Positions 11,880 to 64,000 of a DNA stretch of 64,000 nucleotides are shown one piece after another (positions within the stretch are counted from its first letter, which is position 1; every line of letters starts with the position of its first letter). The stretch is taken from positions 61,177,245 through 61,241,244 of the forward strand of contig CM037861.1 in NCBI GenBank assembly GCA_021292105.1. Direction: 5' to 3'. The notes beneath the pieces are model-generated. The model saw nothing but the letters and a program-made list of their open reading frames with translations, ran no database searches and had not been told where the DNA came from. The DNA is from Anadara kagoshimensis. Taxonomy: Eukaryota > Mollusca > Bivalvia > Arcoida > Arcidae. The position numbers were made by a program, and so were the translations under genes.

Positions 11880-12495
11880 CAAGTCATAGTGATATACTGG
11901 TAGATGGCATTATACATCTGTGAATGGCTCACAGTGACATTTAGGACCCTATACATATGTGGATAGCTCAAAGTGACATGGAAGGCCCTATACATGTGTG
12001 GATCAGTCACAATGACATGGAAGGCCCCATACATGTATAAATTGGTCACAGTGACATGGAAGGCCCCATACATTGTAAATTGGTCACAGTGACATGGAAG
12101 GCCCCATACATGTGTAAATTGGTCACAGTGACATGGAAGGCCCTATACATATGTGGATAGCTCACGGTGACATGGAAGGCCCCATACATGTGTAAATTGG
12201 TCACAGTGACATGGAAGGCCCTATACATGTGTGGATCAGTCACAGTGACATGGAAGGCCCATTGACACATTATTGGCTCACAGTGACAAGAAGGACCTTT
12301 AAAACATGTGAATGAGTGAATGACATGGAGGCCCTATACACATGTGAATGAGTCACAGTGACACCCTATACATGTGTGAATGACTCATGTTACACAGAGG
12401 ATCCTTGCATGCATGTCAATGGGTGACAGTCACATGAAGGGCCCTAAACACATGTGTGAACATGTCATAATGACATAGTGGGCTCTGTACAGATT
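11880..12495. repeat. 39-bp minisatellite, about 15 diverged units
   Basis: The unit is close to CACAGTGACATGGAAGGCCC followed by CATACATGTGTAAATTGGT. The core from about 11,930 to 12,260 keeps strict 39-bp spacing; outer units are degenerate. It lies just downstream of the SPSB3-like gene stop codon, possibly within its 3'UTR. The repeated open frame on the minus strand is a by-product of the unit being a multiple of three. Confidence 0.88.
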
Positions 12496-12543: not shown

Positions 12544-15500
12544 CTACATGTCTTTAATATGCTCCTTCATAACGTTTGGTAGAGGTAGTCTGTCATAATC
12601 TGATTTAATCAAATTCTTTTTGATTGTCAGAAAACATTTTTCCTGAAGTGATAAATAACGGCAAGTTCTGGCACCGAGTCCCAGCTCTGTCTCTGTTGCT
12701 GTAGAGCTTACAACAGGATACAGTGGTACGTTAACTTTGTCCAGTCCATGAAATGCAACACCTTGGCTGACACCATTGATGTAATATGTTAATGTGCCTT
12801 TATAGAGATTTAACTGACAACCAATCACAGTTGTCTTGTCGAAAAATGGTGCACAATACTCCTGACACTTCCCATCATGCCATATTGTTCCTTTGTATGA
12901 TAATCCCCAACTCTCTTGATCAAGACCTGGAAAAAAACACAAGAGCTATTAACACAACAGTAAAGTTAACCTGTCAACTAATTCATAAAAACATTTTTTG
13001 CAATAACATCTGTCGGTCAAAAAAATAAAATTTTTAACAATAGTTCTGATGTTGGTTTTAGGGACAAAGCTTGAACTAATGTTTAGCAAGCAGGTGGGTT
13101 TTAAATTATGAATTTTCACTGACTGTTTTTCTTTCTTTATTAAGTACGGGTAATGAAGAATATGGCAACTTTAATACCAATATATCATTTGAAATTTTGC
13201 AATATTTATGACACTTTTCAATACTTTTTAAAATACATGTTTTCTTTTTTATGGTTAAATTGAAAGCTGCATGTACAAATAGGAATTTTTTTTGTATATA
13301 TTGTATTCCCATCACAAACATGAACTGGAAATAACATATAGCTTAAAACCAGAATCATAAGTATTTTTCTTCACTGATTTGTATCACAGCAAACATTATA
13401 AGTCTATCATAAAATATACATATACAGTAAATGTTTCTATTTTTGGTAGCCAAAATCTCTAATGGCTACAAATATTTAAGAAATTCATCAAAAAAACCTA
13501 TTTTGGCAAATTTGTGAAAAAATACTTTAAAATGAAATATGTTTTCACATTTTTAATTTTTTTTTTTGAAATTTGGATACTAACAATTTTAATTTGTGGA
13601 TTTACCTAGAAACTATATTGTATTCTAGCATACTATAAGTCAAAGGTTAGTGTGCATTATATATATAAAGTATATATATGGTAATTCCTCATGTATATAA
13701 TTATACAAGTCACTTGAGGTCATCTGGAGGTCAAACAGGTGAACGGTCTACCTTTGACCTCAAGTTATTTATATATTATATTAGGTATAAGCTTCTTTAT
13801 ATATTTTGTATACTTACCTATTAAGTTGACATACTGATGATTAGATTTGTGTAGTAGTGTATTCTGTGTCCCAACACCTACCATAACTGAGGTCCCTGCC
13901 GGGGGCTCTAAAAATATAATCTCCCAATAGTGTTCACCATTTGTAAACCCCTTGGTCCCTCTAACACCTGAAAAATATATACATAAGATATGTATATACA
14001 TGTTGTTAACTTCTTTAAAATGCAATTTTCATCAACATTTAAATGATGGTATTCTCACAGCTGAAAAAAGCTCTTTTACACTTTATTAAATGTATGTTAT
14101 AGATTGTAGTGTGATTTATAACTTCAATACTGACAGCAAGACAATGGATCAGCTTCACATTAGATCACTTTCAGTGTAACTCTTAGTTTCCATGACCAAA
14201 CATTAAGATGGATATCAATCAGAATCCAAAGACCTGAACCCTTTAAGATTTTCTCCAGGAATTCCACATATTAATAAGCATCTCTGTATATTGTAACATT
14301 AATTATATATATTTTGTGAAATTTGGCTCACTTTGTTACCGCACTGTAACATTAATTTTTAAATTCAGTGGAAGAACAATACCACATAATGGTACCAGTC
14401 TGTATACCAAAAGTTAATAAATGACATTCACAAAAATGAAAGCTACCATAAATTTCCAATCCCAATAGCCAATCTCACCATTGACTACTAACTTCTCTCA
14501 AAGAGTAGGCCATATAAGCAAATTTATGAAGAAAATACTTCAAAGGGACTATATTTTCACAAATTTTAGAAATTTGACTACTGTACTAATATTTTCGTGG
14601 AAGCGCATGGTCTAGTGGTTAAGGCGTTGGACTCATGATTCGAAGGTCATGGGTTCGATCCCTGGACCGGGCGATGTGTTGTGTCCTTGAGCAAGACACT
14701 TAATTTCACGTTGTTCCAGTTCACTCAGCTGAAAAATAAATGAGTACCAGCAAAATGCTGGGGGTTAACCCTGCGATGGACCGGCGTCCCATTCAGGGGA
14801 GAGTCTTGTACTCTCAGTCGCTTAACGCCACGGAAACCGGGATAAGCTCTGGCCTGATGGGCCTAATGGCTCGGGACAGACTTTAACTAACTTAACTAAT
14901 ATTTTCATATTTGGGGAAACTTAGAAAAGATGTCCTACAGGTGTTGATTATGTTTCTTCTTAGTTCTAGTTGATTTGATGATTCATTTTATTATTACCTG
15001 CTGTTCCAGTACTTTGATAAACCGGGTCCACATAAAAGTAAGCATTATTGAGGTCTGATGATAACATCACCTCTGGGGACTTGTGGTACTGGTCCCATAC
15101 CCAATCATCAATACAAAAATCCTTTATATCCTTTATATTACAAGAACCCAATTTAATTGTCTCAAAATCTAAAGCTGCAAGATAAAAATAAAATCATTAT
15201 GAATTTATGATAGTAGAACTTAATTACCGATATGCTCAAATTTAGACAGAATCATGAAAATAAATTTTATTCAACTTTTCAGAAAATGTTTAATCACAAG
15301 AGTTTCAAACTCATAATAATTACTTTATTTTTAATTTTCTGAAGAAAAAATTTAATTTTGACAGTTTACTAAAATTTGGACTTTTTGTATGGAAATTGTA
15401 CCAAAATCAAACACTTGGTGATAAAAAAGTACATAAATGGCAACCTTGCACAATAAAACTACTAATCTGGACAATTAAAATAAATTTGATTGGTCAGCCT

Positions 15501-17947: not shown

Positions 17948-20900
17948 ATGTATTATGATCAAGGAGGAATGGAATATGAGCTGGAGGAGGACAAGTTGTG
18001 AGATTTTAAATTGATTTGAATTTTTGTATAGCTTCATTACCCTCCATTTCCACTGACGGTTTCCCCCAACGACTTTTTGCAGCATATTGACAGTTTTTCT
18101 TTATTCACACATAGTTTTGTTAGAGCACTGGTTGGGCATTCTTGTCTGTATGAGCTTTGTCAAAAGTACACTTGCATTTTAAGCATGAGTTGTCTGTGTT
18201 TCAAATTTCTCGTATATATTGAATTGTAACGTGTTTGACCTCTAACCTTTATGATGTCAGTCATTTTCTGACGTGGCTATACATTAATACTAGTTGAGAA
18301 AGTTTTCAACCTGTGGGATATAATTTGATAGCACATTCATTTCAGTTTCACAGGAAATTGTGTATCATGCTTGCCTACATTTTATAACCAGTTCAGAAAC
18401 TTTGGATGAGGAATGGACTGTCTGATTTAGAATAAATATATCTGCATTGTTCAGTTGTTGGGAAAGGGAAAACTGCTACAAATGATTTGAAAACCATATA
18501 ATGGAGCGGGCAGTAGTAAAAATGCATGTTTCGTTTTAAAGAAATTGTCTATTATGGTAATGGGTGTAATATTTGCAGCATTTCACATATTTGAAAAAAA
18601 TGAAAAAGTTGTCATGTACGACTGTGAATTACTAAATAATCTATAGGTCAGAAGACAAAGTTTCAAATCATACAATTTTCATTTTTAATAAACAATTAAG
18701 TTTGTGCATTAAGATGTCAACTTTTTTGCTTTAATACTTGAGAGAAAGGCCAATACATACTTGTATCACAATTAATTTATTGTTGCTAATGATTAACAAT
18801 ACACTTTTTCCATTAAGAAATAGTGAAATACATGTATACTGTACAACTTCAGCAATGTACAAAATTAATTTGTGATTGGATGTTTGTTACACTGTTATAA
18901 CTATGTAGAATTTCTTTACAATGTTTTTGTTTGACCAGTCAAGTTCAACTATAAAGGTACCAATTTAATTACATGTAATGATGTATACATTTTCTCTGTC
19001 AGACTTGTTTTATGTAAATGAATGATCACTATAGCAGTAACTTGAGTAAGTACCGATGTGTGTGTGTGTTTTCAGCAGTAAAATATGCCAAGTGTCAAAA
19101 AATTGAATACCGATACATATTTGTGTAAATTCTGCTCTTATTTTCCAATTATTAAAAACAATCTCCAGTCAGACTTTAACACCCTCACCCAGAGTCTGAA
19201 TTCCTAACATGACACATTAATATTTAGTTTACTGATCTGCAACAAAGTAATTGTACTATTGTAGCTCACCCAGCAATATAACCATCTGTTTCAGTGCACA
19301 TAAATGATATAAATAACACAGCTTTTATAATATCTCCATTTCAGTGCACAGTGCTATTCCTATATCTCTTACCTCATGCACCATGACCTATGCTTTTATC
19401 TTCAAAGATCATAGAGGTTTACTATGACACTCTATGGTACTCTTTCATTTTGAGTTATGTGTTGTGTGTATGTGAATGATAAATGTAGATCTATGCACTT
19501 AGATATTCCTTTTGTTCTTTAAACATGTGTATTCCAGTTGGATGTGGAGGTTACATTGTAACCGATTCTGCTTTTTCAATCTTTGTTTCAAATTCTAGTA
19601 TATCTGTTTAGTTATCTTTAGTTTTGTGTGATTCTGTCTGCTTGTTGGTTTGTAGTACAATGTGTATATACATGTATATTTACAGTTTATTTACTTAGAT
19701 TAGATTATTGGATGTTGACTTTTATGATGAATGTTTTGGTCGTCATCCTTAACGTTTACCTGAACCAATTAACACAAAAGTGTCTATGTATAAAAGTCAT
19801 TATCACTACATGTAGTTAACAAACATGTTGAAAAATTGTAACCACTGCATATCACATGACCCTGTAGTATACTAGTGAGGGGCATAAAGTCTTAAGTAAC
19901 AGCAAAAGGATCAAGGTTGTTCTCATCACTTAACATTTAAACTTAATTTCCTCCAACATCCTAAAAACTAACAAAATAGCTCAAGATTTCATAAAATATA
20001 ATGTATTGTGGTTGTTTTAATTTTGTTCAAGTACTGTCTCTGTGGCTCAAAGTTCATAATATCTTGAATTAATGGAATCCATTGAATTATATTGTACTAG
20101 AGGCTACCAGAAATGGTCTTTAATCATTATAGGAGTTCTATTTATAGAGTTAAATGGTTCTCAGGTGAGCGTTAAGGCCTAATTTGGTTTCTTGTTTATT
20201 TATAGATGTTGATTTTGTCAATGTTGTAGTAGCTAGTGAATTTAGTGATTCATCTGTTTTTGAAGTTAGACTGCACATACACATATAAAACCAGGTCATG
20301 TCGGGTCATGAATATGATTATGATTTGTTGCCGACCTTTGACCCAGACGACTACGATCCACAAGAGGATGGATACCCATTTTTCTATGGAGAAGATACAA
20401 GGTTCATGTTCAGATTTGTTACTGATATTCTTGCCAAGCCACATTCTGTCTTTGAATTACAAAATAATACAGCTTCCATTTTTGATAGGAACTGAAATTG
20501 AATATCAAAATTTGATATTTAGGATATACCTGAAGTTTTACATGTATACAACATTCACTTGTCCAAATAGTATAACAACAGATAAATGAATAATTAACCT
20601 ATGTGCTATGTCTGTATCCATTTACTAACCATGTCCTTGCTTAGTTTCGGTTGGCAACACATAGTTTGCACATAAGAAGAGAATGTGTCTGGATTCTGTT
20701 TGTAAATTTATTTGGAAAAGCTGTATGGTTTGGGTACATCTATTAAAAATAGACAAAGTTAATTTTTTAGTCCTTAAAACTTAGAGCACCCCAACAAACA
20801 TTAATACAAATACATGTGATTCTGTAGATCACTTTTATTTCATGAAAAATTTATTTTCGCATAAATTTGCGACTTATCCCATTCGTGAATTCATATATCG

Positions 20901-23900
20901 CACAGATATTTCCAGCACACAGATATTTCTATGTTAACATACATATGTTGTATTCAATAAGATTCGAAACGCGAATTTAAATATTTGCAAATAAGGCCAA
21001 GATGGTCTCAACGCGAAATTTTCTACTCACGAAAAATAAGTGATCTACAGTAATAATTATTCTTGTGTATTCCTGTAAATGAATAATTTTAATTGCTAAA
21101 TAAATGGATCTCAACACTAGATAAAACAAATCATACCAGATAATGTATTCTATATTAAAGTTTCAACTAGTGTTGAGATCCACCATCCATTTATTTTAGG
21201 AATTTATCATATGGTATCCACTTGAAGAAACATAACAGCACTTTGTACCTTAGGGGTGTTGGTTATCTTTATACACAAAATTATGATTAAATAATTTTAA
21301 TATTATGTTAACAAATGACATATATGTACCTTCATTTGTCTAGTGCACCATATGTTGCATTCTGTTACATGTTGTACATGCATGCTAAAAATAGTTGTAA
21401 AGTTAAGTCAGTATAACATGTGTTTTATCAGTATTATATAGATGTACCTGTATTATCTCAACATAAATGTAACAGTCCAATCTTGTCAAATATTCATTAT
21501 GTTCCATACCAGGTATACACCTTGCGAATACACTGATACTTATACTGCATCTGTGGCTTAGCAAAGACTAAAATTTTTAAAATTAAGAGATTAAGTGGAC
21601 AGTATGTACTGGTTCAAACAGTGTCAGTATAATTTTACTGGTGAAGTGGTATGCTTGTCTGTAGTGTACTGACAGGATGAACTAGCTCCTTTGAGTCACC
21701 ATGAATGCTAATAGCATAAGACAAACTACAAAACAAGCTCACACATACACAAACCTGTTCCTTGATTAATCCTTAGGATAAATAAACAGCTTCATTGTTC
21801 ATGGATCTAGATCTGACGTGGAGTAATTATATTGGTATTTTCTTTTATTTCAGGGGAATGACAGTGACCTCTGGGAGGATAAAGTTAGCCAAAGACAACC
21901 AGAACTTAATTGGTATAAGTATCGGTGGTGGAGCCCCGCTGTGTCCGTGTCTATATGTGGTCCAGATATTTGATAACACACCGGCTGCTAAAGATGGCAC
22001 CCTGGCCTCGGGCGATGAGATTGTCAGTGTTAACGGTCAGACAGTCAAAGGTAGAACTAAAGTTGAAGTGGCCAAGTTAATACAATCCATGAAGGTAGGT
22101 CACTTGTAGTTTGTGGATTTGCTTTCAATCTAAATCTTTGGTTTTTCCATGCCTGTATTCTTGAAAATTAGAGCAGTTGATAAAAACAGCCAGAACATGT
22201 AGAACATACCTGTCAAATATTTAAATTTTAGTTACTTAAGTTACCTGTCATTATTTACTATCGAGTCTCGTGGCTGAGTGGTCTAAAGAACAGACTTACT
22301 GATCACAATGCCTATAACTGCCTCAGTTTGGATCTCACTTTGGCTAATCCTAGTGTGAGAAAGTTTGACTGTTCATTTCCCAAAGGTGAATGGTTTTCTC
22401 TGAGAGCTCCAGTTTTCTCCACCATCGTACATGAAGTATTTAAATGCAATGCAACTTTTTATACAGACTTTAACAATTTAAAGAAGAAACTATCTCACAT
22501 GTTCTTTGACAACTTGACTTGAAGTTTGTTTACAGATTTAATTTTCTCTTTATTCAGGAAGAGGTTACCATTGGTTACAATAAACTACATGCTGATCCTA
22601 AACAAGGGAAGAGTCTTGATATAGGTATGTAATTGATATCAGATTGTTAAAATTTAAATATTTGTGTTTTTGTTTAGTTTTGATAAAGGTTTAAAGGACA
22701 GCTGTTTTTGTTTACTAGTATGAATGTATAAAGGGGTACATTTAATTTCATGAAAATAAAATTGTCTTTTAAAATATTGGTACTGCAAGATCTTTTATGG
22801 TAATTTCCGAAAAACATCTGATAAATATAAATTTTGAATCATACTCTACATGTTACCTTAAATCCAGTTACAGTACATGTTTTAAAATTACTAGGATTTA
22901 ATTTTACTATACCATCTTGCATCATACAATAAAACAGTTGGATTCCAGTTTTTACAAATGTTTTGATTTTGATCTCTATTTCAGTCTTGAAGAAAGTTAA
23001 ACATAGAGTTGTAGAAAACATGAATACAAACACAGCAGACGCATTAGGTCTTAGTAGAGCTATACTTTGTAATGGTAAGTAGAGTATATAAAACATGAAT
23101 ACTAACACAGCAGATGCATTAGGTCTTAGTAGAGCTATACTTTGTAATGGTAAGTAGAGTATATAAAACATGAATACTAACACAGCAGATGCATTAGGTC
23201 TTAGTAGAGCTATACTTTGTAATGGTAAGTAGAGTATATAAAACACGAATACAAACACAGCAGATGCATTAGGTCTTAGTAGAGCTATACTTTGTAATGG
23301 TAAGTAGAGTATATAAAACATGAATACTAACACAGCAGATGCATTAGGTCTTAGTAGAGCTATACTTTGTAATGGTAAGTAGAGTATAAAACACGAATAC
23401 AAACACAGCAGATGCATTAGGTCTTAGTAGAGCTATACTTTGTAATGGTAAGTAGAGTATATAAGAATACAAACACAGCAGACGCATTAGGTCTTAGTAG
23501 AGCTATACTTTGTAATGGTAAGTAGAGTATATAAAACATGAATACTAACACAGCAGATGCATTAGGTCTTAGTAGAGCTATACTTTGTAATGGTAAGTAG
23601 ATTATATAAAACACGAATACAAACACAGCAGACGCATTAGGTCTTAGTAGAGCTATACTTTGTAATGGTAAGTAGAGTATATAAGAATACAAACACAGCA
23701 GACGCATTAGGTCTTAGTAGAGCTATACTTTGTAATGGTAAGTAGATTATATAAAACACGAATACAAACACAGCAGACGCATTAGGTCTTAGTAGAGCTA
23801 TACTTTGTAATGGTAAGTAGAGTATATAAAACACGAATACAAACACAGCAGATGTATTAGGTCTTAGTAGAGCTATACTTTGTAATGGTAACTAGAGTAT

Positions 23901-26900
23901 ATAAAACATGAATACAAACACAGCAGACGCATTAGGTCTTAGTAGAGCTATACTTTGTAATGGTAAGTAGATTATATAAAACACGAATACAAACACAGCA
24001 GACGCATTAGGTCTTAGTAGAGCTATACTTTGTAATGGTAAGTAGAGTATATAAGAATACTAACACAGCAGATGCATTAGGTCTTAGTAGAGCTATACTT
24101 TGTTATGGTAAGTAGAGTATATAAGAATACAAACACAGCAGACGCATTAGGTCTTAGTAGAGCTATACTTTGTAATGGTAAGTAGAGTATATAAAACATG
24201 AATACAAACACAGCAGACGCATTAGGTCTTAGTAGAGCTATACTGTGTAATGGTAAGTAGATTATATAAAACATGAATACAAACACAGCAGACGCATTAG
24301 GTCTTAGTAGAGCTATACTTTGTAATGGTAAGTAGAGTATATAAGAATACAAACACAGCAGACGCATTAGGTCTTAGTAGAGCTATACTGTGTAATGGTA
24401 AGTAGATTATATAAAACACGAATACAAACACAGCAGACGCATTAGGTCTTAGTAGAGCTATACTTTGTAATGGTAAGTAGAGTATATAAGAATACAAACA
24501 CAGCAGACGCATTAGGTCTTAGTAGAGCTATACTTTGTAATGGTAAGTAGAGTATATAAGAATACTAACACAGCAGACGCATTAGGTCTTAGTAGAGCTA
24601 TACTTTGTAATGGTAAGTAGATTATATAAAACACGAATACAAACACAGCAGACGCATTAGGTCTTAGTAGAGCTATACTTTGTAATGGTAAGTAGATTAT
24701 ATAAAACACGAATACAAACACAGCAGACGCATTAGGTCTTAGTAGAGCTATACTTTGTAATGGTAAGTAGAGTATATAAGAATACTAACACAGCAGACGC
24801 ATTAGGTCTTAGTAGAGCTATACTTTGTAATGGTAAGTAGATTATATAAAACACGAATACAAACACAGCAGACGCATTAGGTCTTAGTAGAGCTATACTT
24901 TGTAATGGTAAGTAGATTATATAAAACACGAATACAAACACAGCAGACGCATTAGGTCTTAGTAGAGCTATACTTTGTAATGGTAAGTAGAGTATATAAG
25001 AATACAAACACAGCAGACACATTAGGTCTTAGTAGAGCTATACTTTGTAATGGTAAGTAGAGTATATAAAACATGAATACAAACACAGCAGACGCATTAG
25101 GTCTTAGTAGAGCTATACTTTGTAATGGTAAGTAGAGTATATAAGAATAAAAACACAGCAGACGCATTAGGTCTTAGTAGAGCTATACTTTGTAATGGTA
25201 AGTAGAGTATATAAGAATAAAAACACAGCAGACGCATTAGGTCTTAGTAGAGCTATACTTTGTAATGGTAAGTAGATTATATAAAACACGAATACAAACA
25301 CAGCAGATGCATTAGGTCTTAGTAGAGCTATACTTTGTAATGGTAAGTAGAGTATATAAAACATGAATACAAACACAGCAGACGCATTAGGTCTTAGTAG
25401 AGCTATACTTTGTAATGGTAAGTAGAATATAGAAAACATGAATACAAACACAGCAGACGCATTAGGTCTTAGTAGAGCTATACTTTGTAATGGTAAGTAG
25501 AGTATATAAGAATACAAACACAGCAGACACATTAGGTCTTAGTAGAGCTATACTTTGTTATGGTAAAGTAGAGTATATAAGAATACAAACACAGCAGACG
25601 CATTAGGTCTTAGTAGAGCTATACTTTGTAATGGTAAGTAGAGTATATAAAACATGAATACTAACACAGCAGACGCATTAGGTCTTAGTAGAGCTATACT
25701 TTGTAATGGTAAGTAGAGTATATAAGAATACAAACACAGCAGACGCATTAGGTCTTAGTAGAGCTATACTTTGTAATGGTAAGTAGAGTATATAAAACAT
25801 GAATACAAACACAGCAGACGCATTAGGTCTTAGTAGAGCTATACTTTGTAATGGTAAGTAGAGTATATAAAACATGAATACAAACACAGCAGACACATTA
25901 GGTCTTAGTAGAGCTATACTTTGTAATGGTAAGTAGAGTATATAAAACATGAATACAAACACAGCAGACGCATTAGGTCTTAGTAGAGCTATACTTTGTA
26001 ATGGTAAGTAGAGTATATAAAACATGAATACAAACACAGCAGACACATTAGGTCTTAGTAGAGCTATACTTTGTAATGGTAAGTAGAGTATATAAAACAC
26101 GAATACAAACACAGCAGACGCATTAGGTCTTAGTAGAGCTATACTTTGTAATGGTAAGTAGATTATATAAAACACGAATACAAACACAGCAGACGCATTA
26201 GGTCTTAGTAGAGCTATACTTTGTAATGGTAAGTAGATTATATAAAACACGAATACAAACACAGCAGACGCATTAGGTCTTAGTAGAGCTATACTTTGTA
26301 ATGGTAAGTAGAGTATATAAGAATACAAACACAGCAGACGCATTAGGTCTTAGTAGAGCTATACTTTGTAATGGTAAGTAGATTATATAAAACACGAATA
26401 CAAACACAGCAGACGCATTAGGTCTTAGTAGAGCTATACTTTGTAATGGTAAGTAGAGTATATAAGAATACAAACACAGCAGACGCATTAGGTCTTAGTA
26501 GAGCTATACTTTGTAATGGTAAGTAGAGTATATAAAACATGAATACTAACACAGCAGACGCATTAGGTCTTAGTAGAGCTATACTTTGTAATGGTAAGTA
26601 AAATTTTATACCAAGTATATAAACATACTGTATGACATAATTAAAAACAATTAATATTGCTATACATCTGCCTATCTGTCCTCTTCATGACCGATGGAGC
26701 ATAAAAAGACACAGAGATGTCTCCATTTAAGCTTGTCTCCAGGTCCATTTAACTGCCATTTCATCTTCCTTTCCTGTTTCCTTCTCTCACTTGATCTCCT
26801 CCCAGTTTCTCTTGGTCCACCTATTTTTCCTCTCATGCTATAGCCTGGAGTGAAGTAATTTATTGTCAAGAGCTGTTTGAAAAGTTTGACTGATTTCAAA

Positions 26901-29900
26901 TGCCGATTACACTTATTACTTGTATTAAATAGATGTTCAAAACCATTGGAGCCTCCTATTATTCTTGTGCCAAGTGTCATAGTAGCTCTCCAGAGAACAT
27001 CATTGTCTAACTTTGTATGCTGCTGCTGTTACTGTTGTCTGTTCAGTTTCTTCAGTTTGCTGCCATTCTTCACGCTGCTTCTGTTTTTGTACGGCATTCA
27101 CGATAGTGAAAGCGGTACTTTGCAATCGCTTTCTCTAAAACCAGGCTGTTTTTGCACATGGAAATAGTGCGCCTGGTAAATGAACGTGTAAGAAATATAT
27201 CTGTTTTATCGTTAGATATGTATTCTGAGACGGGTAATGCATTTGGTTACATATGCACATTTGGAATAAATTTTCAGAATATATTTCGAAATCTAGTAAA
27301 ATATTGCGTTGGAGTGCATCCAATAATTTGTGCAATCTGGCGAACTGATCTCGTAAATACAACAAAAGTACCGTAGTCGGAAAAGTTTGCATCCTACGAT
27401 GTCAACAACAACAACTACGATGTAAAATCATAACAATTTATGAAATAAACAACAATGGCAGGTGAATTTAACTCATTCTTTATAAAATCTGCGGTAATTT
27501 GAATTTATTTTGAAGGTTATAATAATGTATTTTGGTGTTGAGGCATTCTCTGATTTATCGATTAGTTTATACTTCTGTGAAAGGGAGATAAATCGTACAG
27601 TGTCATGAGCTAACTGACAAGCATGGAATACAAATGTAGATTTGAAATACTTTTGAAATACTTTACCGATTTGGAAGTAAAATTAACATGAAATAGGAAT
27701 ATTGTGAGTGATAATCAGCAGTTTATTGAAAACCAGACTTAACAGCAAATGATCCAGTTACCTACAAACACTAGAATGACCCCCCTCACAGCGACTGTCA
27801 GGTTTGCAAAACTCTACTTTCTCTCTATCCAAAATGACAAACAACGATCAGGTACACATTTATAATTAAAACTTTATTAAAATTTAATTACTGATCGTTT
27901 TTTCATATATTTATGGAATTACTATTTTCTGTTGACCTTTACTTAGCAAAACATGATTTGGTACATCGTTTCTTTTTCAAAAAACTGTGACCATCTGTCG
28001 GACTATAGATGGTGGAGAAACACATTTGTTCATTGATGCATTGATATTAAATTTCAGACGGACTTGTGAAGAAGTTAGAAGAATTGGAAAGAGTTGCTGA
28101 AACATATAAAGGTCTAATAGAACAAACGAGAAGACTCCTAAAGACTACATTTGAATTATCTCAATCACACAGAGGTATTGTATAATATACATGTATTACT
28201 ATTAAATCTGGTAACTGTTAAACATGTACATATAAATACAGTAAAGACCATCTGTCTATTAAAACCTCTCTTTTAAAGCACTTTTGCTTCATTTTTCATC
28301 AAAAAGAACCTCTATATAATATACCACTTGTCTAGAAATTCTATATTATGTTGGTCCCATTGGTGGTTATTATATACAGATTTTACTGTACATGTATTTA
28401 CTGTATAATTTAGCATACCGGTAGTTGGTATACCCTTGTACTTTATCATACACCTGAACATTGTTGTGGAATCATGTTTTAAGTTGATATGGAATATTTT
28501 TCTATAAAAGAGAAATTGTGATACAAACTTTTCTCAAAACCAGCAGAAACACATCGGGCCCAGGTTTCACATCATTCCTTGGCTAAGATTTTCCTTAACT
28601 TAATTCTTGCAAAATTTCAAATCGTTATAATTTTGTTAGTTTTAAAGATATTCAAAAATTTAAGGTGTCATTTTTAAGTCCACTTCTAGATTAAACCATT
28701 TGCATTTACTGTTGACAAAAATAATTCACCAGTAGTTCCAAAAATAGACAAACAAAATTAGCTAAATTTAAGTTGAGGAATGATTGTGAAACCGGGGTCT
28801 GGTCTGCACAAACATTAACGGTTATTGTATGACATGATTTAGTAATATGTGAATTCTGACTAACAGAACACTTATCCCATCCACTTCTTTGTAAACTTTA
28901 TGGCACATTATTTAATAGTTTGTAGAAACACCACTCTCATCAGATGTAAACAAAAGTTTATGTCTAACATGGAGAAACAACACTTTCAATTACCGGTAAT
29001 GTTTAAGCAATTATCACCTGGCAGATTTATAAAGAGTTGTATACTACTACTACATTTCCATTCCAAGTTGTTTTGAGAAATTCTTTCAAAAAGTAACCTA
29101 TTTCAGCAAATTTGTGAAAAAGTAAATTAAAAAGGACTATATTTTCACAAATTTGAAAAATTTGGTTACTAATAATTTTAAATTTGTGATAACTTAGTGG
29201 TAAGCTACACTAAAAATTAGAATTTCTTAAATTTTTATCATGTACGTTACTATTATTTCAGCTTTTGGTGAGGTGTTTTCTGGTATAGGTGTGAGAGAAC
29301 CTCAACCTGCCGCTAGTGAAGCTTTCTCAAAGTTTGGTGAAGCACATAGAAGTATGGAAAAATTTGCTATAACAATGTTAAAGACAGTTAAACCTGTAAG
29401 TGAAGAAGTGGTATACTCTATTTTAAAGAGGGACTTTGATGTGTGAGTGGTCTAAAGTGTGTGTATGGTTGATAGTGCCTCTCACTGCCTGGACATGGGT
29501 TCCAATTTCACTCAGGTATGTCAGTGTTAGAAAATTTATCAGTTTGCTTACCGAAAGGTGTGTGGTTTTCTTTGGGTTCTCCAGCTGTAGAATTCAGTAA
29601 GTTATTGTCTTTGGGTTCTCCAGCTGTGGAATTCAGTAAGTTATTGTCTTTGGGTTGTCCAGCTGTAGAATTCAGTAAGTTATTGTCTTTGGGTTCTCCA
29701 GCTGTAGAATTCAGTAAGTTATTGTCTTTGGGTTCTCCAGCTGTAGAATTCAGTAAGTTATTGTCTTTGGGTTCTCCAGCTGTAGAATTCAGTAAGTTAT
29801 TGTCTTTGGGTTCTCCAGCTGTAGAATTCAGTAAGTTATTGTCTTTGGGTTGTCCAGCTGTAGAATTCAGTAAGTTATTGTCTTTGGGTTCTCCAGCTGT

Positions 29901-32900
29901 AGAATTCAGTAAATTATTGTCTTTGGGTTGTCCAGCTGTAGAATTCAGTAAGTTATTGTCTTTGGGTTCTCCAGCTGTAGTATTCAATAAGTTATTGTCT
30001 TTGGGTTGTCCAGCTGTAGAATTCAGTAAGTTATTGTCTTTGGGTTGTCCAGCTGTAGAATTCAGAAAGTTATTGTCTTTGGGTTCTCCAGCTGTAGAAT
30101 TCAGTAAGTTATTGTCTTTGGGTTGTCCAGCTGTAGAATTCAGTAAGTTATTGTCTTTGGGTTCTCCAGCTGTAGAATTCAGTAAGTTATTGTCTTTGGG
30201 TTGTCCAGCTGTAGAATTCAGTAAGTTATTGTCTTTGGGTTCTCCAGCTGTAGAATTCAGTAAGTTATTGTCTTTGGGTTCTCCAGCTGTAGAATTCAGT
30301 AAGTTATTGTCTTTGGGTTGTCCAGCTGTAGAATTCAGTAAGTTATTGTCTTTGGGTTCTCCAGCTGTAGTATTCAGTAAGTTATTGTCTTTGGGTTGTC
30401 CAGCTGTAGAATTCAGTAAGTTATTGTCTTTGGGTTGTCCAGCTGTAGAATTCAGAAAGTTATTGTCTTTGGGTTGTCCAGCTGTAGAATTCAGTAAGTT
30501 ATTGTCTTTGGGTTGTCCAGCTGTAGAATTCAGTAAGTTATTGTCTTTGGGTTCTCCAGCTGTAGAATTCAGTAAGTTATTGTCTTTGGGTTGTCCAGCT
30601 GTAGAATTCAGTAAGTTATTTTCTTTGGGTTCTCCAGCTGTATAATTCAGTAAGTTATTGTCTTTGGGTTCTCCAGCTGTATAATTCAGTAAGTTATTGT
30701 CTTTGGGTTGTCCAGCTGTAGAATTCAGTAAGTTATTGTCTTTGGGTTCTCCAGCTGTAGAATTCAGTAAGTTATTGTCTTTGGGTTCTCCAGCTGTAGA
30801 ATTCAGTAAGTTATTGTCTTTGGGTTCTCCAGCTGTAGAATTCAGTAAGTTATTGTCTTTGGGTTGTCCAGCTGTAGAATTCAGTAAGTTATTGTCTTTG
30901 GGTTCTCCAGCTGTAGTATTCAGTAAGTTATTGTCTTTGGGTTGTCCAGCTGTAGAATTCAGTAAGTTATTGTCTTTGGGTTGTCCAGCTGTAGAATTCA
31001 GAAAGTTATTGTCTTTGGGTTGTCCAGCTGTAGAATTCAGTAAGTTATTGTCTTTGGGTTGTCCAGCTGTAGAATTCAGTAAGTTATTGTCTTTGGGTTC
31101 TCCAGCTGTAGAATTCAGTAAGTTATTGTCTTTGGGTTCTCCAGCTGTAGAATTCAGTAAGTTATTGTCTTTGGGTTGTCCAGCTGTAGAATTCAGTAAG
31201 TTATTGTCTTTGGGTTCTCCAGCTGTAGAATTCAGTAAATTATTGTCTTTGGGTTGTCCAGCTGTAGAATTCAGTAAGTTATTGTCTTTGGGTTCTCCAG
31301 CTGTAGTATTCAATAAGTTATTGTCTTTGGGTTGTCCAGCTGTAGAATTCAGTAAGTTATTGTCTTTGGGTTGTCCAGCTGTAGAATTCAGAAAGTTATT
31401 GTCTTTGGGTTCTCCAGCTGTAGAATTCAGTAAGTTATTGTCTTTGGGTTGTCCAGCTGTAGAATTCAGTAAGTTATTGTCTTTGGGTTCTCCAGCTGTA
31501 GAATTCAGTAAGTTATTGTCTTTGGGTTGTCCAGCTGTAGAATTCAGTAAGTTATTGTCTTTGGGTTCTCCAGCTGTAGAATTCAGTAAGTTATTGTCTT
31601 TGGGTTCTCCAGCTGTAGAATTCAGTAAGTTATTGTCTTTGGGTTGTCCAGCTGTAGAATTCAGTAAGTTATTGTCTTTGGGTTCTCCAGCTGTAGTATT
31701 CAGTAAGTTATTGTCTTTGGGTTGTCCAGCTGTAGAATTCAGTAAGTTATTGTCTTTGGGTTGTCCAGCTGTAGAATTCAGAAAGTTATTGTCTTTGGGT
31801 TGTCCAGCTGTAGAATTCAGTAAGTTATTGTCTTTGGGTTGTCCAGCTGTAGAATTCAGTAAGTTATTGTCTTTGGGTTCTCCAGCTGTAGAATTCAGTA
31901 AGTTATTGTCTTTGGGTTGTCCAGCTGTAGAATTCAGTAAGTTATTTTCTTTGGGTTCTCCAGCTGTATAATTCAGTAAGTTATTGTCTTTGGGTTCTCC
32001 AGCTGTATAATTCAGTAAGTTATTGTCTTTGGGTTGTCCAGCTGTAGAATTCAGTAAGTTATTGTCTTTGGGTTCTCCAGCTGTAGAATTCAGTAAGTTA
32101 TTGTCTTTGGGTTCTCCAGCTGTAGAATTCAGTAAGTTATTGTCTTTGGGTTCTCCAGCTGTAGAATTCAGTAAGTTATTGTCTTTGGGTTGTCCAGCTG
32201 TAGAATTCAGTAAGTTATTGTCTTTGGGTTCTCCAGCTGTAGTATTCAGTAAGTTATTGTCTTTGGGTTGTCCAGCTGTAGAATTCAGTAAGTTATTGTC
32301 TTTGGGTTGTCCAGCTGTAGAATTCAGAAAGTTATTGTCTTTGGGTTGTCCAGCTGTAGAATTCAGTAAGTTATTGTCTTTGGGTTGTCCAGCTGTAGAA
32401 TTCAGTAAGTTATTGTCTTTGGGTTCTCCAGCTGTAGAATTCAGTAAGTTATTGTCTTTGGGTTGTCCAGCTGTAGAATTCAGTAAGTTATTTTCTTTGG
32501 GTTCTCCAGCTGTATAATTCAGTAAGTTATTGTCTTTGGGTTCTCCAGCTGTATAATTCAGTAAGTTATTGTCTTTGGGTTGTCCAGCTGTAGAATTCAG
32601 TAAGTTATTGTCTTTGGGTTCTCCAGCTGTAGAATTCAGTAAGTTATTTTCTTTGGGTTCTCCAGCTGTAGAATTCAGTAAGTTATTGTCTTTGGGTTCT
32701 CCAGCTGTAGAATTCAGTAAGTTATTGTCTTTGGGTTCTCCAGCTGTAGAATTCAGTAAGTTATTGTCTTTGGGTTCTCCAGCTGTAGAATTCAGTAAGT
32801 TATTGTCTTTGGGTTCTCCAGTTTCCTACACCATGTCCGAACCAACTACCTTGTTATATATACTAAGCCTGTCTGACTAATTCTTAGATATTGTAGTGGT

Positions 32901-35900
32901 GGACTGTGACCAAGCACTTGGCATAAAGAAGGTATTTTTTTAATTAAACAAATGTTTAGTAGACTTTTCGAGGTAAGGATTTCAAACTACACTTGAGTGG
33001 CCTAAAGTGAACACTTACAGTCCATGCCATGGTTCATATTCTGCTCTGGACAGATCCTATTGTTCAACCACATCATGTTTTATCATTGATGATTTGTTTC
33101 TTTGACCATTTCAAGTAATCTTTTTATATTTTCCAGATGATTAGCGATTTAAACACATATTTAAACAAGGCAGTACCTGATACAAGGCTGACAATTAAAA
33201 AATATTTAGATGTCAAGTTTGAATATTTGGTAAGTAAAAGCAAAACTTTTGTTTCTATTTCAACAAACTTGGATGTGGATTTAACTTGCTGGTTATTCTA
33301 CCTGGTCTGTTTTGAAGACAATGTCCTCATTATTTCATACTTCTGAAATTTATTCAATTTATGCAATGATTAGACAACCAAACGCAAGGTTTCCAATAAT
33401 TTAACATAATTACTATAGTAGCCAAAATTCGTGAAAACGTAGCCCTTTTTAAACTACATGGTTTTTTTCACAAATTTGCTAAAATAGCTTACTTTTTGAA
33501 AGAATGTCTGAGAAATTATAACCCAGTGTTGAATTTGGCTTTATAATAACTTGAAACATGATTCAGTGTTTGCATATTGTTGAGCTAGCCATTTAGTCAA
33601 AAAAAGAATAGCTTGTTCATATATTTGTACAAACACATGTTTGCTAGAATTTAGTTTGTGTTTAAAATCTGGATGCCTTTTGCTTTTCATGACTTCAGTG
33701 CCATTGGAGTGCTTTTTTGGGACTTCAGTGCCACTGATATTTTTTCGGACTTAAGTGTCACTGATTAATGGTACGTTATTGTTTATGGAGTTACAAATCA
33801 CCGTACCTCTCTGTACTTGTGTTCTACTTTTCACCCCCAGGGCAGATCCTAGAAAGTTTGTGAGTTTGCTTACCTAAGGTTTGATTTTCTACAGAGTCTA
33901 CAGTTTTTAAGGGTCCTTTGTATGAGACCTTAAAACTGATGCTCCATGTCATGGTAGGCTTGGCACGAGACCTTAAAACTGATGCTCCATGTCATGGTAG
34001 GCTTGGCACGAGACCTTAAAACTGATGCTCCATGTCATTGCAGGCTTGGCACACTAAAGGACTAGCACTACACATTAAACACTGTTTCAACCAACGAACA
34101 AGCTTGGATATATGGTTATGTGTTTGGGACTCCTGTTTGGCCTTTATTGTTATAATGTTTATATTTTTTTCATAGGCATACTGTTTAAAAGTTAAAGAAA
34201 TGGATGATGAAGAGTATAGTTATGCTGCATTACAAGAACCTTTATATAGAGTAGAAACAGGAAATTATGAATACAGGTACAGAAATATGCTGCTCTCCAT
34301 AAATTATCATACATGTTTTAAACTGGTCTTATCATAACAGACTCAAAACCGTCACAAAATTAAATTGTTGAAAATATCATTATGCTAAACTGAAAGTATT
34401 TTTATCTTGAAAAATGTAATTTTCCCAAATTTCTATATTTTTCCCCAAAATTTCAGAAAATTCCAAGAAAATTGATTTTCAAGAAAACCAACTTTATTAC
34501 ATTCATTTAGATCATACAGTTAAAATATCACTTACTAATACAGAAAAAAATTCAATATTTCAAATCTATGTCTATGAACAAAATTAGATTCAATGATTAT
34601 AATGCAAACCTATGGCAAGTATATATTTGTAAAGTTAGTTATAGAGGAGTGTGTAGTAGCGTTACAATTAGATGTCTTTTACCAATACACAATTTCAATT
34701 TAATTGTATCTTTTTAAAAAATTATTTTAATATCTGGACTTTTAGTTCATTAAGGCATTCAGTTTCTATTTAAGTGTATCTATTTTAAAATTTTATTTAT
34801 ATCTGGATAATTGGGTATTTTGTCATCAAGCAAATTTGAAGGAGTTTTATGTACAATTTTTTGTGCATATGATATACTGTTATAAATATTTAAACTCCTA
34901 AAATAAATGGGGTTGGGTGTTCATCTCTTTTCTAGTGTACTTCCAACACAAATTTTATAAAACACACTGGAAATAAAACAAAAGTTATTTATGAAGACCA
35001 CTAATTAGACTATAGGAATTTTAAGACCCTAACACACAGCAATATGAAGCAAAGAGGCCTTAAACATTAGCCTCTATAGACAGGTGCAGCGCAGCCTCAA
35101 CTGCATGGTCTAGTAAAGTTTATTTTAATTCTTCTGTTTTAATGTAATTTTAGGTTAATATTACGATGTAGACAAGATGCTAGAGTAAGATTTGCCAAAA
35201 TGAGATCAGATGTTTTAGTCAAGATGGAACTTCTCGATCAGAAACATGGTAGGTCATCTTTAATGTACACAAGATACTGTGGATTGAAAGTTTTGTCTGG
35301 TGCTGAATTTAATTAAGAATCAAATAGCATTTTTTCAGGCTTGTGCAATAGTAAAATAACTTGATTTCAGAAGCACAATTATGCAAAACATTGTTATTTA
35401 AATCACATAAACTTAATTGCAATGAATTCAGGGTTTTCTTAATCTGTAAGCACACACTTAAAGACAACTATGGGACTAAGGCCAATAGATTTGACCAAAT
35501 TGATTGCATTTCATAATCCCAGTTAACAAAATTTCACTTATATTGGGAGATCACCAGCTGTAAGTGACGTGCACTAACTAGCATGGGTTCTTTAGAGGTC
35601 CATACTAGTCCAACTTATCAGCCCACCGAACTCCCTTTTTAATTTTTGACTTTTTGGGGGTTTATGGTGTGACATTATTGAATTCTTGAAATATCTGGCA
35701 AAAACAACAGAAATGAAAACCAGAGTCGATAGCTTCCAGTAAGTCCTTACCTTGCTGGCAACATGGAACACTTCCTAAAACATTATTCTACCATTCCATG
35801 CTTGAAGTATTCCATGTTGCCAGCAAGAGCAAGGTAAGGAAATACTGGAAGCTATCGGTGTGCGATTTCGTTTTTTCCTTTTTCTACAGAATTTCGAGAA

Positions 35901-36354
35901 TTTAATAATGGAAGCTGTCGGACCACAAACCCCCAACAAGTCAAAAATTAATATTGGGGTTTATTGGGCTGCTTAGTCAGACTAGAACCACACATACTTT
36001 GGCATGTGACACAAGACTTATTAGCTATTGTATGGAAGCAATAAATTTTACAAAAATGTTTAAATTTTAATCACTATATCTTTTGATTACTTTATTTCAG
36101 TTCAAGACATAGTGTTTCAGCTACAGCGTTTTGTAACAGCAATGTCTCATTACCATAATGACTGCCATTCTGTCATGAAAGAAGCAGTAGTGTTTCCAAT
36201 AGAAGTAGACTTGTCTAGAGGAACCTTTACTTATGACACCTCAAATCAATTTAACGATGGGGAGGATGAGGAGGAAGAAGAGGAGGCAGAGGGAGAAGAG
36301 GCGACAGAAGTTGTGGAAACGGAACACACGGGTGATCTCATTGCTACTGATTAA
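17948..36354 (+). CDS. PICK1: PICK1 (PRKCA-binding PDZ-BAR adaptor), complete 10-exon gene
   Basis: Exons are 17,948-17,997; 21,854-22,094; 22,558-22,624; 22,985-23,074; 28,058-28,174; 29,262-29,395; 33,137-33,229; 34,176-34,276; 35,154-35,248; 36,101-36,354. The total is 1,242 nt, 413 aa, all GT..AG with consistent phases; the vertebrate protein is about 415 aa. PICK1 is a peripheral membrane adaptor: the PDZ domain binds C-termini of receptors and kinases, and the BAR domain dimerises and senses curvature. Visible: acidic N-terminus ending EYELEEDKL; PDZ with KDNQNLIGISIGGG and FDNTPAAKDGTLASGDEI (about 22-105); linker with ADALGLSRAILCNDGL; BAR segments with GVREPQPAASEAF, LNTYLNKAVPDTRLTIKKYL and MDDEEYSYAALQEPLYRV; acidic Glu-rich tail near 385-405. 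The gene reads intact. Its oddities are in the introns: intron 4 holds a 49-copy exon/donor-site array and intron 6 a 3.2-kb minisatellite. Confidence 0.96.
20298..20401 (+). CDS. Candidate alternative first exon of PICK1
   Basis: An ATG-led frame inside PICK1 intron 1 encodes a strongly acidic, aromatic segment (EYDYDLL, DPDDYDPQEDGYPFFYGED). It ends at ACAAG|GTTC, which leaves two bases, exactly the phase needed to join exon 2. PICK1 normally begins with a short acidic stretch before the PDZ domain, so this could encode an alternative N-terminus. Weaknesses: the donor GTTCAT is poor and no homologue is known to me. It could also be a chance frame. Confidence 0.35.
20822..21050. mobile_element. 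MITE with CTGTAGATCAC ends
   Basis: The left end CTGTAGATCACTTTTATTTC and right end AAAAATAAGTGATCTACAG are inverted repeats; TTCGC/GCGAA blocks inside also pair. About 229 bp, non-coding, in PICK1 intron 1. Confidence 0.75.
21098..21200. repeat. Imperfect hairpin in PICK1 intron 1
   Basis: ATGGATCTCAACACTAG and CTAGTGTTGAGATCCA are inverted copies flanking about 45 bp, with the pairing extending to AAATAAATGG/CCATTTATTT. Probably a small foldback element. Confidence 0.7.
22258..22440 (+). mobile_element. SINE relic (family 1) in PICK1 intron 2
   Basis: The tRNA-like head TGGCTGAGTGGTCTAAAG is followed by a GTTTGGATCTCACTT-type B-box area, an AGTGTGAGAAAGTTTG block and a GGTTTTCTCTGAGAGCTCC block. 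The order matches the other family-1 copies, including the one that hosts the minisatellite at 29.5 kb. Confidence 0.65.
23016..26600 (+). repeat. 49-copy tandem array of PICK1 exon-4 end plus its 5' splice site
   Basis: The first copy is the true 3' end of exon 4. Forty-eight further copies follow head-to-tail to 26,600. Each unit carries about 59 nt of exon 4, the donor G|GTAAGTAG and about 10 more intron bases. Units are of two lengths, 75 bp and 70 bp; the shorter lacks 5 bp in the ATAAAACATG segment. Copies are 95% or more alike by eye, with recurrent variants (GATGC/GACGC/GACAC, ACACG/ACATG, GAGTAT/GATTAT), indicating ongoing homogenisation. Two donors are altered: GGTAACTAG near 23,888 and a one-base insertion near 25,564. 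In the exon-4 frame every copy reads AAT GGT AAG TAG, so any transcript not spliced at the first donor ends at once, after the PDZ domain. Reading frames on the minus strand across the array are periodic by-products. Confidence 0.97.
26601..28057 (+). other. Remainder of PICK1 intron 4
   Basis: Overlapping frames at 26,672-26,980 (minus, Arg/Lys-rich) and 26,877-27,167 (plus, Cys/Phe/Leu-rich) are mirror images of one compositionally biased stretch and show no known domain. The intron ends in TTAAATTTCAG before exon 5. Nothing else is recognisable. Confidence 0.5.
28237..28390. mobile_element. MITE, TACAGTA-ended
   Basis: The left end TACAGTAAAGACCATCTGTC and right end TATACAGATTTTACTGTA are inverted, with the ACCTCTATA/TTATATA interior typical of the pogo/Tigger-like group also seen at 9.9 and 45.7 kb. 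It is in PICK1 intron 5. Confidence 0.6.
28556..28802. mobile_element. MITE with GGTTTCACA ends
   Basis: The left end CCCAGGTTTCACATCATTCC and right end GGAATGATTGTGAAACCGGG are inverted repeats of at least 30 bp (extending through CTTAACTTA/TAAGTT). About 245 bp, in PICK1 intron 5. Confidence 0.75.
29068..29190 (+). repeat. Dispersed about 110-bp repeat, copy 4
   Basis: AAAAAGTAACCTATTTCAGC, then GGACTATATTTTCACAAATT, then TTTGGTTACTAATAATTTT; the best-preserved copy in the window. PICK1 intron 5. Confidence 0.65.
29440..32880 (+). mobile_element. SINE (family 1) expanded by an internal minisatellite
   Basis: The left flank of the array is a normal family-1 SINE: TGAGTGGTCTAAAGTG head, GGGTTCCAATTTCACTC B-box area, TTATCAGTTTGCTTACC and GGTTTTC blocks. 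The right flank resumes the SINE with TTCTCCAGTTTCCTACACC. The 39-bp array lies exactly between, at the CTCCAG segment, so the satellite is an expansion of SINE-internal sequence. Confidence 0.8.
29571..32820 (+). repeat. 39-bp minisatellite, 83 units with no indel
   Basis: The unit begins TTTGGGTTCTCCAGCTGTAG and continues AATTCAGTAAGTTATTGTC. From the first unit start (29,571) to the start of the final partial unit (32,808) is 3,237 bp, exactly 83 x 39. Two main unit types differ at one base (GGTTCTCC or GGTTGTCC). Rare types (GTATTC, CAGAAAG, CAATAAG, ATTTTCTTTG, GTATAATTC) recur at fixed spacings of 1,326 bp (34 units) and 546 bp (14 units), a nested higher-order structure. The array is in PICK1 intron 6. 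Open frames on both strands follow from the unit being a multiple of three without stops. Confidence 0.97.
33000..33075 (+). repeat. SINE (family 1) head fragment
   Basis: TGAGTGGCCTAAAGTGAACAC, then a CATGGTTCATATTCTGCTC B-box-like area and GGACAGATCCTA. Truncated, just upstream of PICK1 exon 7. Confidence 0.45.
33425..33530 (-). repeat. Dispersed about 110-bp repeat, copy 5 (inverted)
   Basis: On the plus strand it reads GTAGCCAAAATTCGTG to GCTAAAATAGCTTACTTTTT, the reverse of the copies at 16.2 and 29.1 kb. PICK1 intron 7. Confidence 0.5.
33924..34053 (+). repeat. 43-bp tandem repeat, three copies
   Basis: The unit begins GAGACCTTAAAACTGATGCT at 33,924, 33,967 and 34,010. Almost identical copies, in PICK1 intron 7. 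Confidence 0.95.
35550..36020. mobile_element. Long foldback element in PICK1 intron 9
   Basis: A large imperfect palindrome centred near 35,785. The inner arms share GATAGCTTCCAGTA, CCTTACCTTGCT and GGCAACATGGAA; outer arms share TAATTTTTGACTT, GTTGGGGGTTT and CAGCCCA-type blocks. It ends only about 80 bp before exon 10. No coding capacity, so a foldback-type MITE is likely. Confidence 0.75.
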
Positions 36355-36620
36355 AATGTTGTCATGATAAATAAGACATGTAAACTGAACGTACTGAATA
36401 AAATACCACCAAAACAGATGTTATGACATGAAAGCATCCTAGTTACAAAAAACAAAACACATACCTAAGAATCTGTTTTAGTGATTTAAAACTATTAAAT
36501 GGCTATATTAGTAATGGAAAGTGAATGTATTGAATAAAATACCACCAAATAAGATAATGTCATCATATGAAACAGCTTAGTTATAGATATGCAGGACACA
36601 TCCAAGAAACTGTTTGTTTT
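36355..36620 (+). terminator. PICK1 3'UTR with two polyadenylation signals in a duplicated segment
   Basis: AATAAA occurs at 36,397-36,402 and 36,533-36,538, each inside a copy of a duplicated block reading TGAATAAAATACCACCAAA and followed by similar GTTATGACAT/GTCATCATAT sequence. Either could direct cleavage; the first lies about 40 nt after the stop codon. Confidence 0.6.
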
Positions 36621-37455
36621 ATATAAAGGCTATTTTCATTGGAATTCTTGTATTTTTTGACATATTTGTTCTGCCTGAAAATCCTTTATTATTTCCACAA
36701 CTTATATCATAGGTGAAATTTCCATCAGGTGTGTTTTACATTCCATTCTACCAGACTTGTGCATTTTGAATCTCATATCTGTATAGAAATCCATCTCAAT
36801 TGAAATCCGTACTGATATACAAGTATATTGAAATAACTTGCGAATTTTTGAATCTCTTATTCATCTGGAAATCCATCTTCATTGAAATCCTTATATATTA
36901 ATGGTTTCAGTCTTCTTGAAATCTTTTTTTATTTACAAAATGTATTATTTAAAAACATGTTTAACTTTTATATTGAATATCTGAGCGAGTATAAAATAAT
37001 TACCCACGGTTGGTTATGATTATGTCATTGGCCCTGAAATATGGAAAAAGATGTTAAAAATTTAATTCTGTAACTTTGTAGGTATCATTGTTGTTAATTT
37101 GCCTGCTTATTCAATGATATAATTACATGGGAAGGTATAATTACATGGGAAGGAAAATATCATTGAACCAGAGTGTAAATATCAAATGGTCGCTTTTACT
37201 GAAACAAACATTGTTATATTGTTATTTACTTTAGTTGTTTACAATGAAATTTTGATTTGATTATAAAAAAATACATGTAGCATTCTGATTGCCTTTAGTT
37301 TTAAGTATATTACTACCAAAAGTAAAAAGAAACTCATCTGGACGATACATTCATGCAAACACCGTCAATTTCATACATTTCTGTTTACATTCCATTTATA
37401 TATGTGAAATTACAAACTCTCTGTCAAGTGATTTGTTAATCCATGACATTTATGA

Positions 37456-41435: not shown

Positions 41436-64000
<22,565 letters not shown>

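Follow-up and report, generated by a model that had tools for sequence, protein, structure and literature searches.

The boundary between exon 4 and intron 4 of PICK1 is repeated 49 times, in 47 of the copies the donor reaches the full computed strength, and the host gene has an intact coding sequence. All of this is directly observed in the window, that is, the whole 64-kb stretch of DNA that was analyzed. The array is probably a large minisatellite of the type described as mirages in amphioxus, formed by duplication at a short homology and expanded through unequal exchange. It is probably tolerated because the first donor has the favored position. We infer that donor 1 is used, that the array is neutral, and that copies 2 to 49 are spliced out.

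The coding gene for PICK1 is complete on the plus strand of the window. In the spliced model, ten exons with GT-AG ends are joined into a single frame of 431 amino acids. The exon ends were set from the GT-AG ends together with the open frame, and are in this sense a prediction from the genomic sequence. Alternative ends of exons 2 and 3 would give a product of equal length that differs in one residue. The coding exons are exon 1 with the start codon (20298..20401), exon 2 with the bulk of the PDZ domain (21854..22094), exon 3 (22558..22624), exon 4 (22985..23074), exon 5 (28058..28174), whose acceptor is the target of the competing donors, exon 6 (29262..29395), exon 7 (33137..33229), exon 8 (34176..34276), exon 9 (35154..35248), and exon 10 with the stop codon (36101..36354).

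Pfam placed a PDZ domain at residues 44-120 of the 431-residue product (E = 4.8e-11) and an Arfaptin-like/BAR domain at residues 138-373 (E = 6.7e-79). Among the 19 listed matches to PDB sequences, the best 6 were PDZ chains of PICK1 (PRKCA-binding protein). As judged from these assignments, the host gene of the donor array is an intact PDZ-BAR PICK1. Rfam at gathering thresholds gave no match in 20000-37000, and ARAGORN found no tRNA in the 64-kb window. A 206-residue part of PICK1 had no confirmed relative in the collections viral_contigs (9 stretches fit a pattern) and genome_contigs (45 stretches fit a pattern). This was expected, because PICK1 is an animal gene and such collections do not contain animal genomes.

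The array occupies 23016..26600 on the plus strand. Its unit consists of the last 59 nt of the 90-nt exon 4 (23016-23074 in copy 1) and about 16 nt of intron, and 49 such copies follow each other head-to-tail, as a sequence-only reading of this DNA had claimed. The repeat was confirmed by TRF (23015-26600, period 75, 48.9 copies, 94% matches, score 6162) and by an exact 23-nt anchor, which occurs 49 times on the plus strand of the window (first at 23044, last at 26563) and not at all on the minus strand. The earlier description was right about the number of copies, but not about their uniformity, as the units are of two main lengths. There are 31 copies of 75 nt and 15 of 70 nt, the latter being 5 nt shorter in the unit tail, as well as one copy each of 73 and 71 nt. 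The junction with the unique intron is confined to the last copy (26541..26600, plus strand), whose donor GTAAGTAAAATTTT runs on into this intron, whereas the first copy does not. Another 1,457 nt of unique intron separate the end of the array from the start of exon 5 at 28058, in agreement with the distance of 1.4 kb that had been given.

The copies are similar, with a mean pairwise identity of 98.1% over 58 nt, and the 48 complete ones comprise 22 distinct unit sequences. In 28 of the 49 copies, copy 1 included, the 53-nt exon part is identical to the real exon. Copies 21-23 show a pattern of three units that is repeated directly by copies 24-26, and the fourth unit agrees too. C is replaced by T at unit position 19 in nine copies, six of which are found among copies 2-8, and copy 1 has the majority form. 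Identity between copies does not fall steadily with the distance between them, and the homogenization of the array is not clearly local. The unit pattern had no exact matches in viral_contigs.

The donor of exon 4 itself, GTAAGTAG, lies at 23075..23082 on the plus strand. ATG followed by GTAAGTAG is present in 46 copies, and ATG followed by GTAAGTAA in one, which is the last copy. The consensus donor ATG/GTAAGTA (-10.7 kcal/mol) is therefore found in 47 of the 49 copies. The remaining two copies have damaged donors, GTAACT and GTAAAG. Computed pairing with the 5' end of U1 amounts to -10.7 kcal/mol for the exon 4 donor; of the nine PICK1 donors, none is stronger and only the intron 7 donor equals it. 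The same value was obtained for 47 of the 49 array donors, that is, for 46 of the 48 further donors, compared with -5.0 and -6.4 for the damaged ones. Outside the two large arrays of the window, only 7 of 3,180 plus-strand GTs reach -10.7, real donors included. The claim of 49 equally good donors thus has to be reduced to 47. The related claim that the copies have the potential to recruit U1 agrees with the pairing of the further donors and with their predicted openness (100 nt flank on each side), which averages 0.54 for donors 2-48, 0.56 for donor 1, and 0.38 for the last donor.

With regard to openness, donor 1 ranks 18th of 49, and the possibility that it is distinguished by RNA structure was rejected for this reason. 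As modelled, neither of the two intrinsic measures, U1 pairing and predicted openness, distinguishes the genuine donor from the other 48. Because the donors are alike in both, a preference for donor 1 must rest on position, on other factors, or on selection among finished transcripts. Splicing can prefer the donor closest to the acceptor if several strong ones are occupied. Consensus donors that are added to a pre-mRNA bind further U1 in extract (PMC8724738).

Production of the normal PICK1 protein requires that the first among dozens of near-identical donors is chosen. Exon 4 has 90 nt with donor 1, and would have 165 nt with donor 2 and 240 nt with donor 3. We modelled transcripts that use donor 2, 3, 4, 5, 6 or 49, or that keep intron 4, and all seven predicted products had 169 residues. 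According to the computed translation, the six later-donor products would end with ILCNGK. An in-frame TAG (23080-23082) follows GGT AAG, two codons beyond the normal exon end and past the PDZ domain, so that the claim of such a stop for all donors but the first was upheld at the six modelled junctions. Since the stop sits in the donor of copy 1 itself, the other later donors should lead to the same end. The distance from the stop to the next junction was 67 to 3,511 nt in the six later-donor cases. The 50-55 nt rule defines targets of nonsense decay in mammals, and under this rule the later-donor transcripts would be nonsense-decay substrates. Loss of the mRNA would be likelier than a stable PDZ-only protein.

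Variation among the copies did not point to constraint on the additional donors, in a test that is weak due to the few variants. Up to unit position 63, there were 11 types of variants (the AACAT/AACAC site, the AACAY deletion, and the remaining tail are excluded from this count). Two types fell on the nine donor positions, compared with 1.6 expected (probability of as few or fewer 0.80). The types in the exon part were 3 synonymous and 4 non-synonymous ones.

AGs within the array have at most 9 pyrimidines in the 16 upstream positions, compared with 9-14 at the nine real acceptors, a weak test because the real exon 5 acceptor also has only 9. The array is unlikely to give rise to a new exon or to recursive splicing, as acceptor-like tracts are lacking. 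Use of the array as coding sequence on the plus strand was rejected as well, since the frames hold 111-144 stops and the longest open stretch has 46 codons. The minus-strand frames of the array contain 44-72 stops, with open stretches that reach 223 codons. These long stretches are taken as a by-product of the repeat period.

The exon can be regarded as the source of the unit because the repeated part is in-frame PICK1 coding sequence. Human PICK1 has a stretch that is closely similar to the repeated exon part. The probable source of the intronic tail of the unit and of the short homology AAACAT is AGTATATAAACAT, located in the unique intron just beyond the array (26614..26626, plus strand). 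Where the tail of one unit meets the exon start of the next, the sequence is AGTATATAAAACAT. Of 2,849 windows of 60 nt that lie outside the two arrays, 3 had a match to the unit tail as good as AGTATATAAACAT. The first duplication probably joined AGTATATAAACAT in the intron to AAAACATGAATAC in the exon via the common AAACAT, with the added assumption that about 12 nt of intron would have been lost at the birth junction. The units would then have been amplified by unequal exchange or conversion. The repeated three-unit pattern in copies 21-26 and the high identity of the copies are what unequal exchange gives.

The array is probably tolerated because exon definition would favor donor 1, which yields an exon of 90 nt rather than 165 or 240 nt, and also because transcripts made with later donors would stop two codons past the exon end and be destroyed. 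Its main effect would then be an intron 4 that is longer by about 3.5 kb, together with some loss to nonsense transcripts, and there would be no designed switch.

The sequence-only reading knew of no described donor-site satellite of this size. Amphioxus mirages and the human IFI6 array are of the same kind, although none as large was found in the accessible text. Mirages are minisatellite-like tandem repeats of variable length that span exon-intron boundaries, and were described in Adh3, the globins BflGb6 and BflGb9, TnC, and PGBD5; their units measure 10-160 bp, and many carry splice signals (PMC3087553, PMC3902484, in the accessible text). The authors take their data to suggest that regular splicing is not affected, and allow that the signals could yield alternative or aberrant transcripts (PMC3087553). 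The mirage in BflGb9 duplicates the 3' boundary of exon 2, and the PICK1 array does likewise for exon 4. The mirage copy numbers stated in the accessible text range from 2 to 7 (3 and 6 in BflGb6; 2 or 7 and 3 or 6 in PGBD5, depending on the assembly), compared with 49 in PICK1. Normal splicing was reported in the presence of mirages, and is a prediction in the case of PICK1. The PICK1 array is like the mirages in that its unit spans a boundary, with exon and intron parts of 59 and about 16 nt, in that the authentic boundary is retained, with copy 1 inside the intact frame, and in that the units carry splice signals, namely the consensus donor.

A minisatellite in human IFI6 (6-16, G1P3), reportedly described by Turri and colleagues in 1995, is said to provide multiple splice donors. 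It has a 12-nt unit in about 26 copies, starts close to the end of an exon, and includes the donor in the repeat. The PICK1 array shares this general layout. The extra donors of IFI6 add few codons, whereas the PICK1 units have 75 or 70 bp and the modelled later donors lead to a stop. Two downstream repeat units of IFI6 serve as donors, giving three mRNA species in all, so that such arrays can yield isoforms, although even there only few appear to have been reported (PMC4526556, in the accessible text).

Duplications at exon-intron boundaries have also been discussed elsewhere. In potato RdRp, a tandem duplication spanning a boundary provides copies of splice signals that are ready for use (PMC4974935), and variable repeats are present at exon-intron boundaries of human duplicated genes (PMC2812944), as far as the accessible parts of these papers go. 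Compared with intron gain by splice-site duplication, the PICK1 unit has a donor, but no acceptor-like tract, so that the units alone are unlikely to give rise to new introns or exons. Apart from amphioxus and IFI6, the accessible text of the open-licence literature yielded no donor array, and none of such size. The PICK1 array belongs to an already described kind and is notable for its 49 copies and 47 intact donors.

A regulatory role is unlikely, but of the alternatives it survives best. The length of the array might set the share of later donors, and thus lead to a PDZ-only PICK1 of 169 residues or to unproductive mRNA that lowers the PICK1 level. This would be in keeping with the full computed strength of 47 donors, with the prediction that donor 1 is no more open than the others, and with the stop right after the PDZ part in the six modelled later choices. 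IFI6 uses downstream repeat donors (PMC4526556), and in extract, pre-mRNA carrying two U1 snRNPs makes up a larger share when a consensus donor is added (PMC8724738). However, the donors beyond the first show no sign of constraint in the weak variant test, the modelled products are predicted decay substrates, and amphioxus mirages were reported, in the text available, without disturbance of regular splicing (PMC3087553, PMC3902484). A length-variable competition of donors, in which the copy number sets the read-through of exon 4 to the stop, tunes the PICK1 level or the PDZ-only form, and varies between individuals, perhaps between cells, is likewise doubtful.

An assembly artefact, in which a true allele with one or a few copies was wrongly expanded, has a low probability. 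Long arrays of near-identical units are difficult to assemble, and one amphioxus mirage appears to be aberrantly assembled in the genome draft, according to the available text (PMC3087553). Nevertheless, 22 distinct units, two main lengths, and the separate tail of the last copy would hardly result from error. This diversity is unlike a simple stutter of one unit, although the copy number may be wrong.

We consider it very improbable that the array acts through U1, either as a sink or by shielding intron 4 from premature polyadenylation. There are 47 strong U1 sites within 3.6 kb, and a second array in intron 6 (29569-32821; 83 copies of a 39-bp unit according to TRF) also has GTAAGT, in 73 places. 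These sites are weak as donors, and pair with only -5.6 kcal/mol compared with -10.7 kcal/mol for the exon 4 array. U1 ranks among the most abundant nuclear RNPs, and a few nascent transcripts cannot titrate it. The proposed sink is thus implausible by number, and unlikely.

A dispersed or mobile-element satellite that was placed at the exon end by chance is extremely improbable: Helentrons in oyster carry satellite-like arrays, as far as the available text goes (PMC7492417), and a flank of the intron 6 array resembles other places in the window, but the exon 4 unit contains 59 nt of PICK1 coding sequence, its anchor has no other copy on either strand of the 64-kb window, and at E 1e-3 the intron pieces next to the array have no match elsewhere in the window.

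The array at exon 4 represents a natural experiment in which the spliceosome chooses among near-identical donors that differ in position. The readout is easy, full PICK1 versus a stop two codons on, and could bear on exon definition, transcription order, or nonsense decay. As the array suggests, a minisatellite that spans a boundary can grow to dozens of units within a conserved gene. The intron 6 array indicates that a large array can also arise in PICK1 without an exon end; the flank that resembles other places in the window is its left one.

A second large tandem array occupies intron 6 of PICK1, between exons 6 and 7 (29569-32821), where TRF resolved 83 copies of a 39-bp unit with 96% matches. 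Its units have the motif GTAAGT on the sense strand in common with those of the first array, the 49-copy donor minisatellite at the end of exon 4 and the start of intron 4 (23016-26600). The right end of the intron 6 array repeats its first 21 nt, and places similar to its left flank were found within the window at 22352-22412, 33850-33877 and 60128-60178. On the minus strand, a stop-free frame of 1,105 aa (29508-32825) spans the array. The period of 39 nt equals 13 codons, and this frame is probably a mere by-product of that period.

TRF also identified a third, more diverged 39-bp array at 11911-12363, with higher-order periods of 78 bp and 155 bp. A SPRY-domain ORF lies close to it on the minus strand (12544-12945).

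PICK1 intron 2 holds a dispersed element (22241-22440). Relatives that are 71-78% identical lie at 51786, 63275, 60216 and 39658 within the window. The element looks SINE-like, but ARAGORN predicted no tRNA in the window.

The minus strand of 44960-62767 carries fragments of a fatty-acid-synthase or polyketide-synthase-like gene. Apart from 54154-54615, which had no Pfam match, the ORFs scanned there (five of six) matched thioesterase, carrier protein, ketoreductase, methyltransferase with pseudo-KR, or dehydratase.
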